A stretch of DNA of 32,544 nucleotides from Flammeovirgaceae bacterium (lineage in GTDB: Bacteria; Bacteroidota; Bacteroidia; Cytophagales; Flammeovirgaceae), in assembly GCA_019634305.1 (NCBI GenBank), contig JAHQVQ010000301.1, positions 1 through 32,544 on the forward strand. The letters are read 5' to 3'. The notes under the pieces are model-generated. The model saw nothing but the letters and a program-made list of their open reading frames with translations. It was not told the origin of the DNA and ran no database searches. Position 1 is the stretch's first letter, and the number at the start of each line of letters is the position of its first letter. A program made the position numbers and the translations under genes. Positions 4,935-19,254 of this stretch are shown one piece after another.

Positions 4935-7589
4935 TTAGGCCTTGAGGCTGGGAATTGTAATAGTGAATTCGGTTCCTTTATTTACATCTGATTGAACGGT
5001 AATTTTACCCGCCAATTTTTCAATCGACTCCTTTACAATATACAATCCCAACCCAGAGCCCTTTTTTACATCGGTAGCTCTATAGAACATTTTAAAAATT
5101 TTACTGATATGTTCAGGTTTAATTCCAATGCCATTGTCAGATATTTCTATGGTAGCATTTTCTGAATTGCTATTTATGGTAACCTTTATCCAGGAATTAT
5201 CAATATAGGAATTGGAGAATCGAAGGGCATTGGATAGGAGGTTATTAAGGATAACAGACAAGCGTCTTATATCGGAATAGAATACATCAGTTTGGTTAAT
5301 TTCCAGAATTCTTTCTACATTTTTTGCTTCTTCCAAATAGTGATAATTTTGAAAAGTTTCCTCAATTAGTTCCGCAAAATTTATTTCCTCCATCTTGAGC
5401 TCCATTCTAGAATTCCTGGAATAATTAAGAATATCGCGAATAAATTCATCTAGGCGAAAAAGGCTTTTTTCCTGCAGATCAAGATATTCTTGGAGCTTAC
5501 TATCACTTTTTTCACTTCTTGCAAGGGTAATTAGTCCTAAAGAAGAAGCGATAGGAGCCCTTAAATCGTGAGATACCCGGTATACAAAATTGTCTAATTC
5601 CTGATTTGTTTTTTTTAATCCCTCATTATGGTTTTTTATAGCTTGTTCCTGAGTTTTTCGAAGTGTAATATCATTTTGAATGGCAAAATATTGTATCAGT
5701 TCATTTTTTTTATTAAAGACTGGTTGGATGGAAATTTCATTCCAATATTTTTTTCCAAACTTTGAATAGTTCAGTAATTCTGCCTTTATAGATTGCTGAT
5801 TTATTAAAGCCTCTTTGATTTTTGAAATGGTTTTTGGGTCGGATTCGGGGCCTTGTAAGAGTTTTCCAGGATTTTTACCTATTACTTCTTCCTGGGAATA
5901 TTCAGTTAACCGTACAAATTCCTCATTTACCCACTTTATTTTCTCATCCTTATCGGTGATAATAATTGCATTATTTGTTTCTGAAGCAATTAAAGCCAGT
6001 TTATTGAGCTCACTCTCAGCCTTTTTTCTATAAGAAATATCGGAAATAAAACCTTCCAAATGAAGAACTTCACCATTCTTTGATACAGAGACTCCTATTT
6101 CTTCCACCCAAACCCAATGGCCATCTTTATGTTTTAATCGATATTCCAGCTGAAACTTTCCGGAGGATGATAATTGTTCATCTACGGTTTTATAGATATT
6201 GTCCACATCCTCAGGATGGTACAACTGTGGAAAGCTTATTTTTCCCTCAAGAAATAAATCCTTAGGATAACCAGTAAGATCTTCTACCTTTGAATTGAGG
6301 TAAATAATTGTCCAGTTTTTATCATTATTACATAAGTAAATTACCCCTGGAACATTATCAGCTAACATCCTAAACTTATCTTCAGAAATTATTAAGGCTT
6401 CGGTGGCTGTTTTCCAGTCTGTAATATCTTCAAAAACACCTAGGACACCATATACCTCGTTAGTTTCATTTGTTAAAGGAATTTTACTTGTTCTTATCCA
6501 AACTTTTTCCCCACTCTTTGAAGTAAGACATTCCTCATAATTTAATTTGACAATGTCATTATCCATTACCCATTTATCATCTTGCTGATAATTTGAAACT
6601 TCATCTTTATTCCTAAAAAAGTCATTATCTGTTTTACCAATTAGTTGTTCTGGATTTTTTAAACCTAGGTATCTAGCTAGGGTTAGGTTCCCTCCTAAAT
6701 AAACTGAATTTCTATCCTTCCAAAAAACACTTACTGGAATCGTATCTAGAACTTTTTGGAGCATTAATTTTGCATTTTTTAACTCACTTTCTATGGCCTT
6801 TTGTTTTGAAATATCCCTTCCTACTCCAATAAGGCCAATTGTATTGCCTAAATTATCAACTAAAGGAGTCTTTATTATATCAAACAATACCATTTTTCCA
6901 TCCCTTTTTTGCCATTCTTCATTCCTTTGAGGTTTTCCCGATACCATTGTTTTTTTGTCCATATTCTGGAAAAGAATAGCGGTTTCCTTTGGAAATAGAT
7001 CAAAGTCTGTTTTCCCAATGATATCTTCTATTTCCCTACCCAATAAATTGGCAAAGGCTTGGTTACAACCTGTAATTACGCTTTTGGCATTTTTAAACAT
7101 AATGGGATCTTCCATTTTATTTATACTTAACGATAGTCGTAACCTTTCTTTTTCAAGAATCTCTTTTACCTTTTTCAGTTCATTAGTTTTATTCCTTAAA
7201 TTCTTTTCGAGAAAATCTTCTTTTGAATTGGCTTTGGATTTAGAACCATAAATTTCAGGAATGGGGTTTATCAAGCCAATAAACTGTAAACTTTCTGAGT
7301 CAGGGTTTAAAGTCAATTCCAGTTTTAATTGCTCATGGTTTTTTTTAATAAATGTAAGAAAAAGTCTCTGAGAGGATTTTTTTGTAAAAAGATAGGTCTG
7401 AAAAAAAGATTGGAGTAGCTCCTTTTCTACTACAAATTTGGCCAAATCTTCACCTAAGGTGAATTCGGATTGATAACCAAGGTTTACATACCAATTGTTA
7501 TCAGTTTTTAAAAGCTTTCCCCTTTCATCAAGGAGAATAAAAATGTTATTAGCCTTCCCAAATAATTGGTTTATTTCAGTTTTGCTCAC
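4935..7589 (-). CDS. Multi-PAS sensor histidine kinase, cytoplasmic
   Basis: An 884-residue kinase without membrane segments. Domains: a divergent PAS (about 1-110), a charged coiled coil (about 125-155), PAS at about 150-265, 275-392, 403-522 and 528-645, another short coil, a HisKA dimerisation helix with phospho-acceptor His674 (VSHDLRAPI), and a HATPase with N-box Asn787, DNGIGI (Asp818) and GSGLGLYIVKE. Several PAS end in the GxxxDIT or GRDIS linker. The fourth full PAS has GKNPGKLLQG, the shape of the LOV motif but without the flavin-adduct cysteine, so it is not a classical blue-light sensor. No receiver domain and no adjacent response regulator, so it is an orphan kinase. Transcribed divergently from rpsO. 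The signal sensed is unknown; redox or small molecules are typical for such proteins. Confidence 0.9.
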   Translation of the reverse strand: MSKTEINQLFGKANNIFILLDERGKLLKTDNNWYVNLGYQSEFTLGEDLAKFVVEKELLQSFFQTYLFTKKSSQRLFLTFIKKNHEQLKLELTLNPDSESLQFIGLINPIPEIYGSKSKANSKEDFLEKNLRNKTNELKKVKEILEKERLRLSLSINKMEDPIMFKNAKSVITGCNQAFANLLGREIEDIIGKTDFDLFPKETAILFQNMDKKTMVSGKPQRNEEWQKRDGKMVLFDIIKTPLVDNLGNTIGLIGVGRDISKQKAIESELKNAKLMLQKVLDTIPVSVFWKDRNSVYLGGNLTLARYLGLKNPEQLIGKTDNDFFRNKDEVSNYQQDDKWVMDNDIVKLNYEECLTSKSGEKVWIRTSKIPLTNETNEVYGVLGVFEDITDWKTATEALIISEDKFRMLADNVPGVIYLCNNDKNWTIIYLNSKVEDLTGYPKDLFLEGKISFPQLYHPEDVDNIYKTVDEQLSSSGKFQLEYRLKHKDGHWVWVEEIGVSVSKNGEVLHLEGFISDISYRKKAESELNKLALIASETNNAIIITDKDEKIKWVNEEFVRLTEYSQEEVIGKNPGKLLQGPESDPKTISKIKEALINQQSIKAELLNYSKFGKKYWNEISIQPVFNKKNELIQYFAIQNDITLRKTQEQAIKNHNEGLKKTNQELDNFVYRVSHDLRAPIASSLGLITLARSEKSDSKLQEYLDLQEKSLFRLDEFIRDILNYSRNSRMELKMEEINFAELIEETFQNYHYLEEAKNVERILEINQTDVFYSDIRRLSVILNNLLSNALRFSNSYIDNSWIKVTINSNSENATIEISDNGIGIKPEHISKIFKMFYRATDVKKGSGLGLYIVKESIEKLAGKITVQSDVNKGTEFTITIPSLKA

Positions 7590-15984: not shown

Positions 15985-16322
15985 AATTGTAAGTTTTATG
16001 TCTGAAAGTCGATTGAGATTATTTTATCACAAAATCTACGCACTAACTTTTAACAGACTGTTCATGTTATTTAAAGGATTAAAGTTTATCTCTCACTTTT
16101 CTGTTTGCATAAAATTAGAGAACTTTCAAATAATAATTTGGTGAAACCTTAAATTTTAACTTTTTAATTTCCTTGGTAATCTATTATATTATCAACACAA
16201 ATTAAAGAAAAAAAAGTATGCATGCATAACATATTTAGAAAAATTTATATAAAAAACTTCAGTCATGTCCATTTTGTTTCCATTCCTGCTCTATCTTTCT
16301 TTAACCATCAACATTAATACTT
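15985..16322. other. Divergent spacer between etfB and the SGNH hydrolase gene
   Basis: A 338-bp AT-rich spacer that must contain promoters for both flanking genes. I see no reading frame, tRNA or strong repeat. Near-matches to TAnnTTTG exist on both strands but with wrong spacing, so none is called. Confidence 0.5.
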
Positions 16323-16928
16323 ATGGAAAATGAAAAAAGCTATCTGGCACTGGGAGATTCATATACTGTAGGAGAAAGTGTTGATGCAGAGAAAACATGG
16401 CCAGTTCAATTAGTTAATTTCCTGAAAAAGAATAAGGTAGAGGTAGGTACTCCTAAAATAATTGCTACAACAGGCTGGACTACTAATGAACTTATTTCAG
16501 CAATAAAAGAGGAAAATATAAATAAAGAATTTGACCTGGTTTCTTTACTAATTGGTGTAAATAATCAATATAGAGGATATCCAATTGATCAATACAAAAA
16601 GGAATTTGAAGAATTATTACAAATTTCTATCATTTATGCAAATGATGATCCTTCCAAAGTATTTGTGCTTTCAATTCCCGATTATGGAGTCACTCCATTT
16701 GCTTCTGAAAGAAATCCTGAAAAAATAGGAAAAGAGCTGGATGAATATAATGCTATTGCCGAGGCGATTTGTAAGCAATATAAAGTGTGTTTTTTTGACA
16801 TTACACCAATTTCAAAAAATGCCAAAAATGACCCTGAACTAGTAGCAGATGATGGTTTGCATCCATCGGGGAAAATGTATATGGAGTGGGTTGATTTGAT
16901 TTGGAAGGATGTTTTTAAGATGATTTAA
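16323..16928 (+). CDS. SGNH/GDSL-family hydrolase, cytoplasmic
   Basis: A 201-residue single-domain esterase. Block I is LALGDSYTVGE with nucleophile Ser13; block III is LIGVNNQYRG, with Asn in place of the usual Asp of GxND; block V is DDGLHPSGKMY with Asp177 and His180 completing the triad. No signal peptide is present, unlike many Bacteroidota SGNH esterases, so it should act in the cytoplasm. The family hydrolyses acyl or acetyl esters and thioesters; substrate unknown. It is convergent with the CoA-transferase gene downstream. Confidence 0.88.
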   Translation: MENEKSYLALGDSYTVGESVDAEKTWPVQLVNFLKKNKVEVGTPKIIATTGWTTNELISAIKEENINKEFDLVSLLIGVNNQYRGYPIDQYKKEFEELLQISIIYANDDPSKVFVLSIPDYGVTPFASERNPEKIGKELDEYNAIAEAICKQYKVCFFDITPISKNAKNDPELVADDGLHPSGKMYMEWVDLIWKDVFKMI

Positions 16929-18515: not shown

Positions 18516-19037
18516 TCAATCACAATCGAAAGGCTGATCCATAATGTGATAAATCTGATTTCTGAAGGAATAATGCCACCATTCGGAGGTGATGGACTGG
18601 AACCCAAACATTTCCATAGTCACTTTTAAAAAAACTCTTCTGCTGAGGACTTCCTTGGGCAATTCTTGATAGGCATGATGGGAAATTTGACCGAAATGAT
18701 CGTATGGAGAACCCATTTCCAATTCTTTTCCTGTAGCAATATCTACAAGAGAAACATCAACCGCATTTCCACGATTATGCATAGAACCTTTAGCGGGGTC
18801 GGCTACATATCTGGGGTCTGGAATTTTTTCCCACATCTTTTTTTGTACAGAAAGCGGACGGTAACAATCAAAAAGTTTTAATTTATAGCCAAGGGTATTG
18901 AGATAATTATTGAGGGAAATAAGAGAATCTGCTACCACTTTTCTAAGCAGACATTGTTCACAATCATAAAGAGGTGTTTTAGTGAAATTATCAGAACTGG
19001 CATATTTAATATCCAGATCAAAATTGTTATTGTACAT
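18516..19037 (-). CDS. D-alanyl-D-alanine dipeptidase catalytic part (M15D, VanX/DdpX-like), frameshifted from its signal peptide
   Basis: A 173-residue open frame holding the whole VanX-type domain: FDCYRP with Arg60, SMHNRGNAVD with zinc ligands His87 and Asp94, and SEWWH with Glu152 (general base) and zinc ligand His155. The family cleaves D-Ala-D-Ala, giving D-alanine for peptidoglycan recycling or, in VanX, glycopeptide resistance; no vanA or vanH ligase genes are nearby, so recycling is more likely. The Met at 19037 is unlikely to be the true start: the same frame stays open 45 bases further up with family-like residues (DYKTYPDSALVNLI). Upstream, in another frame, lies a matching lipoprotein signal (19072-19254). 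Deleting one base from the A9 run at 19082-19090 fuses both into a 245-residue lipoprotein. Confidence 0.85.
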   Translation of the reverse strand: MYNNNFDLDIKYASSDNFTKTPLYDCEQCLLRKVVADSLISLNNYLNTLGYKLKLFDCYRPLSVQKKMWEKIPDPRYVADPAKGSMHNRGNAVDVSLVDIATGKELEMGSPYDHFGQISHHAYQELPKEVLSRRVFLKVTMEMFGFQSITSEWWHYSFRNQIYHIMDQPFDCD

Positions 19038-19071
19038 GATCAGATTTACCAGGGCAGAATCCGGATAGGTT

Positions 19072-19254
19072 TTATAATCGATTTTTTTTTATCGCTTTAG
19101 TTTTAGGAGGAGTAACTGGCTCTGATTCTGGAAATTTTTCATCTGAAATTTCCTGCGTGATTTCCTCCTTTGATTCTTCTTTATTTTTTTCTGCTGGAGT
19201 ATTACAACTGATGATAAAAATTAAAAAAAGAAGGAAGGTGTTTTTTTTAGTCAT
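19072..19254 (-). CDS. N-terminal lipoprotein signal and linker of the split dipeptidase
   Basis: A 60-residue frame with a type II signal peptide: MTKKN, hydrophobic LLFLIFIIS, then Cys17 as lipidation site. A Glu/Lys/Pro-rich linker follows to residue 57, then the frame leaves the protein at an A-run and stops after NRL. The stop overlaps the region where the M15D frame becomes readable, so this is best seen as the front end of that gene, not an independent small lipoprotein. If the run had eight A the joined protein would be periplasm-facing and lipid-anchored. Confidence 0.7.
   Translation of the reverse strand: MTKKNTFLLFLIFIISCNTPAEKNKEESKEEITQEISDEKFPESEPVTPPKTKAIKKNRL
19082..19090 (-). 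other. A9 homopolymer at the frameshift point
   Basis: Nine A on the coding (minus) strand lie between GCGAT and TCGATTAT. Eight A would give the continuous reading ...KAIKK-IDYKTYP.... Runs of this length are prone to replication slippage, RNA-polymerase slippage and sequencing error. Confidence 0.8.

Follow-up and report, generated by a model that had tools for sequence, protein, structure and literature searches.

A predicted lipoprotein dipeptidase gene of Flexithrix is interrupted at a run of nine A, probably by a young slippage insertion

In a metagenome-assembled genome of Flexithrix, a gene that appears from its sequence to have encoded one exported (surface) lipoprotein D-Ala-D-Ala dipeptidase of the VanX/PcgL kind is divided between two reading frames at a run of nine A. 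The most likely explanation is a young slippage insertion in the DNA that interrupts the dipeptidase gene, perhaps left leaky by slippage of RNA polymerase, and we put the probability of such an insertion at roughly 0.58; an error in the reads or the assembly comes next. The initial annotation had proposed one lipoprotein dipeptidase split by a single A, which is borne out by the open reading frames, by the 245-aa product obtained when the tract is read with eight A and by the intact gene of the congener. The A9 interruption adds one more case to a known class, either slippage mutation or consensus error.

Layout of the locus and reading frames

The window, that is, the whole stretch of 32,544 nucleotides that was analysed, is contig C271 of the Flexithrix genome, which has a size of 5.4 Mb in 461 contigs, a completeness of 84.7% and a GC content of ~35%. 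The tract at which the frame changes is T9 on the forward strand and A9 on the coding strand, and it is the sole A/T run of at least nine bases in the window (Table 1). Read with eight A, it joins both frames into a single 245-aa lipoprotein. Read with ten A, which is the equivalent of a -1 ribosomal shift, the frame runs into a dead end after 69 aa, and -1 ribosomal frameshifting is rejected for this reason. The segment between the tract and the internal Met is conserved as protein, which indicates that it was part of the original coding sequence.

Table 1. Features of the interrupted dipeptidase gene (positions in the window)
Feature	Position	Strand	Description
5' part of the gene	19072..19254	-	frame 0 from ATG 19254; lipoprotein signal peptide (lipobox-like FIISC), acidic/Lys-rich linker, tract, then out-of-frame stop at 19072; 60 codons (60 aa)
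A9 tract, point of frame change	19082..19090	-	one A above the count that gives the full-length frame
Segment from tract to internal Met, in the catalytic frame	19038..19081	-	DYKTYPDSALVNLI; conserved at the protein level
VanX-type (Peptidase_M15) catalytic frame from the internal Met	18516..19037	-	173 aa from the first usable start (19037), within 190 open codons that end with the stop at 18516; first strand of the domain missing

Identity of the enzyme

The catalytic frame matches the Pfam family Peptidase_M15 (PF01427) with 115.5 bits against a cut-off of 27 (E = 3.5e-33), and the joined protein aligns with VanX (1r44) at E = 1.3e-19. The same structure is the best solved match to a model of the joined protein (E 7e-14, TM 0.74 on the target). 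The residues that define a VanX-type dipeptidase, namely the zinc ligands HxxxxxxD...H together with the catalytic Glu and Arg, are all present: H159, D166, E224, H227 and R132 (full-length numbering) align with those of VanX and are invariant in alignment A1, as the initial annotation had claimed in describing the zinc and catalytic residues as intact. The scores remain below the NCBIfam equivalog cut-offs, with 160.7-164.8 against 176 for NF007557 and 90-92 (90.3) against 320 for NF033115, so that we can only infer the exact substrate.

Inspected by eye, the N-terminus has the hydrophobic stretch and lipobox Cys of a lipoprotein (FIISC here, ITWGC in F. dorotheae), and a similar stretch with a lipobox Cys is seen in most relatives. 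Compared with exported VanX-type dipeptidases (Peptidase_M15, NF007557/PRK10178; Salmonella PcgL; E. faecium VanX 1r44), the joined protein has the fold and catalytic residues in common, its closest solved structure is VanX, and export is predicted, as in most of the relatives found here. By contrast, its best scores (164.8 of 176; 90.3 of 320) fall short of the equivalogs, and it has a lipobox, a Lys/Glu-rich linker and an interrupted frame. Salmonella PcgL is periplasmic.

The frame that starts at the internal Met had been regarded as complete. However, this Met is preceded by the conserved stretch PDSA(L/F)V(N/E)L and by a predicted strand, the first of the domain (residues 68-70); residues 61-70 have a mean pLDDT of 92 in the model of the joined protein. 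With these two elements outside it, the 173-aa frame is, on both the alignment and the model, an incomplete domain.

The locus in the congener and other relatives

At the syntenic locus, F. dorotheae DSM 6795, the sole congener in the search, has a single intact frame of 244 aa with 92% identity in the catalytic part, and the order of CoA-transferase-like gene, dipeptidase and sulfatase is common to both Flexithrix genomes. At the position of the tract it reads CAAAAAGTTGATTAC, without a long A tract. The homologues examined are single-frame and all extended at the N-terminus, in most cases by a signal peptide or a stretch with a lipobox-like Cys; none of them starts at the internal Met, a case that the initial annotation had named as one that would speak against a split gene. 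Furthermore, none of the dipeptidase matches found in relative genomes contains an internal stop, and none of the relatives compared has a run of at least nine bases or a frame break at the place of the tract. Four species of one sister genus (L009, L013, L014 and L017) carry an A8 in the same linker, in frame. No other copy of the locus was found in IMG/VR, and a scan of genome contigs returned the congener and distant relatives, with no second genome of the species.

Since the congener and the homologues are single-frame, none of the latter starts at the internal Met and the congener lacks the tract, the frame break is best read as derived and peculiar to this genome, a one-base change in a lineage-specific tract. 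The tract itself looks like a by-product of Lys codons and not like a conserved signal.

Selection and the age of the break

Within the Flexithrix pair, dN/dS is ~0.03 for the catalytic part and ~0.10 for the 15 codons that separate the tract from the internal Met (dN 0.094, dS 0.945). These 15 codons are conserved although they would be non-coding under an internal-Met start, and therefore selection saw the full-length protein. When amino-acid changes are polarised with outgroups, 6 fall on the lineage of the window and 4 on that of F. dorotheae, with 6 without an assigned lineage. Codon evolution gives no sign of relaxed selection or decay, the changes on the gene's own lineage being not clearly above those of the congener, and a rough calculation bounds the dead period to roughly 2-6% of the branch. 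The lack of relaxation suggests that the break is very young, or else a consensus error. The initial annotation had remarked that no further damage is visible and that this is unusual for a dead gene; the first part stands, since no decay is seen, but the second does not, because a recent event (or an error) accounts for the intactness.

Long A runs elsewhere in the genome and the case for an error

The alternative that survives best is that the true tract has eight A, that the lipoprotein dipeptidase is intact and that the extra A stems from sequencing, PCR or assembly. This is a possible explanation, if a clearly less likely one than an insertion in the DNA. A consensus error at A9 would give an identical picture, the only run of at least nine bases in the window coincides exactly with the frame break, and the missing trace of relaxed selection is what an error would leave. 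Moreover, coverage of a metagenome-assembled genome of such fragmentation and incompleteness may be low, raising the chance of error relative to an isolate.

How long runs are called in this assembly was assessed by a census of coding A/T runs in 1.38 Mb of the same genome. Among runs of eight, 140 are in frame and none is confirmed broken; among runs of nine, 16 are in frame and two are confirmed broken (the dipeptidase and a GNAT acetyltransferase), both with one extra A. The frequency of breaks thus differs between runs of nine (2/18) and runs of eight (0/140) with a Fisher p of 0.012, which is post hoc and based on small numbers. The 12 flagged candidates at runs of eight were inspected by eye, and the candidate breaks at these and at the other runs of nine were judged to be adjacent genes, gene starts or gene ends; the candidate at L051:18288, for instance, marks where a gene genuinely ends, 14 bases before a convergent gene. 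In the second confirmed case (L059, contig C31 of G000, ~5943-5951, minus strand) the GNAT gene is broken at an A9 that has one A above the frame of the congener, and the gene is longer and in one frame in F. dorotheae and in three other relatives. A degenerate IS630-like transposase (L093, contig C65 of G000, 120-1100) also has an A9 between two frames, together with further damage; it was set aside as a possible internal control for slippage because of the damage elsewhere and because no intact repeat of it exists in the sample.

The sharp rise of breaks at nine bases fits slippage mutation, as expected, but two like events at A9 would equally be expected from an overcall that depends on run length, and the GNAT break could in this sense mark a systematic error. 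Against an error stands that long A runs are generally called right, with 16 coding runs of nine in frame and no run of eight confirmed broken. In addition, 51 open reading frames of the congener have a match in the sample; 45 of them are full length, and contig ends or multi-match/multi-domain cases account for four of the rest. Because of these in-frame runs and full-length frames, the assembly does not seem generally unreliable at homopolymers, and the balance leans towards a real mutation. To judge by the large number of short contigs (5-20 kb), the reads were probably short, and with short reads consensus errors at A9 are uncommon.

Slippage in the DNA and possible leakiness

On the favoured reading, a slippage insertion, the gene for the exported lipoprotein dipeptidase would have gained one A where the Lys-rich codons of the linker form an A tract specific to this lineage, by an ordinary replication-slippage mutation that is present in the sequenced population. 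We infer that the ninth A is a genuine feature of the DNA and that the gene is at present either null or leaky, in that a small fraction of mRNAs losing one A (or gaining two) could restore the full-length lipoprotein. The product of the internal Met would be cytoplasmic and short of part of the fold, and it is for this reason unlikely to be the functional form.

Some leaky full-length product from the A9 allele is plausible by analogy, because bacterial transcription does slip at runs of nine A and A-tract indels are bypassed elsewhere: leaky bypass at A-tract indels of otherwise intact genes has been documented (PMC3812077; PMC3017870), and such indels in otherwise intact genes are common in Blochmannia (PMC3017870). 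The dipeptidase gene resembles these cases, and the poly(A) frameshifts of Blochmannia and Buchnera that are possibly rescued by slippage (PMC3017870, PMC4389277), in that one indel lies in a long A tract and the gene is otherwise undamaged, under purifying selection and not accelerated in rate. By contrast, the host has a 5.4-Mb genome rather than that of a reduced endosymbiont, and the frameshift is not conserved between species. Should the tract exist in the DNA and be bypassed in RNA, the rescue of poly(A) tracts that is known from endosymbionts would extend to a member of the Bacteroidota with a large genome. That this lineage generally tolerates A9 frameshifts, as in the dipeptidase and the GNAT gene, with polymerase slippage supplying working protein and the tracts acting as an expression dial, is an improbable further step.

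Regulated alternatives

The initial annotation had also raised regulated control by the tract, as a phase switch or as programmed slippage, and neither form holds up well. An evolved hypermutable switch that turns the surface dipeptidase on and off would suit an A9 early in a surface-lipoprotein gene, and tracts of this length are mutable. Yet the tract is absent in the congener and no run of at least nine is found at this place in the other relatives, the A8 tracts in the linker of the sister genus are in frame in all four species, the dipeptidase is no target of the antigen type, and contingency tracts tend to be longer than nine A. Phase variation is accordingly improbable.

Programmed transcriptional slippage, which would yield a fixed mixture of the lipidated full-length enzyme and a short lipopeptide, is if anything less probable still. 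The length of the tract matches the nine-A or nine-T runs known as sites of transcriptional slippage in bacteria, as in Thermus dnaX (PMC5009743), and an out-of-frame stop follows close behind it. Unlike a programmed site, however, whose tract and frame relation would be conserved in orthologues, the tract is unconserved and has no conserved short product. Furthermore, the direction of the shift is unfavourable, since the frame is repaired only if one A is lost or two are gained, which is disfavoured for bacterial RNA polymerase, while the dead end follows from one added A as well as from a -1 ribosomal shift. In E. coli, RNA polymerase slippage is more frequent on T than on A and yields insertions about three times as often as deletions (PMC6260861), and homopolymer deletions are rare (PMC5574713).

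The weakest alternative, two genes for a small lipoprotein and a cytoplasmic dipeptidase, the latter perhaps translated by reinitiation at the ATG 34 nt past the stop, can be set aside as extremely improbable, since no relative starts at the internal Met, this Met lies inside the conserved domain and the 15 codons before it evolve as protein in the full-length frame.

Annotation and further observations

Gene callers will give a 60-aa orphan lipoprotein and a seemingly cytoplasmic dipeptidase at this locus, where the ancestral gene would have encoded one surface lipoprotein.

Elsewhere in the window (16265-16323, plus strand), a conserved hydrophobic stretch, MSILFPFLLYLSLT, lies upstream of an SGNH hydrolase and one base out of its frame. 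In F. dorotheae the stretch joins the open reading frame of the hydrolase, and the offset in the window is not at a long run. The stretch is probably a conserved 5' leader, and a signal peptide that was lost or gained is possible.

Dipeptidase genes that resemble those of Flammeovirgaceae also occur in two public records of metagenome-assembled genomes, titled Thalassovita sp. and uncultured Thalassobius (L023, PBYL01000247.1; L024, CAKZMZ010000298.1). The two records match genomes placed in the family to which the window belongs (G011, G008); their organism names look wrong, or the bins look mixed.
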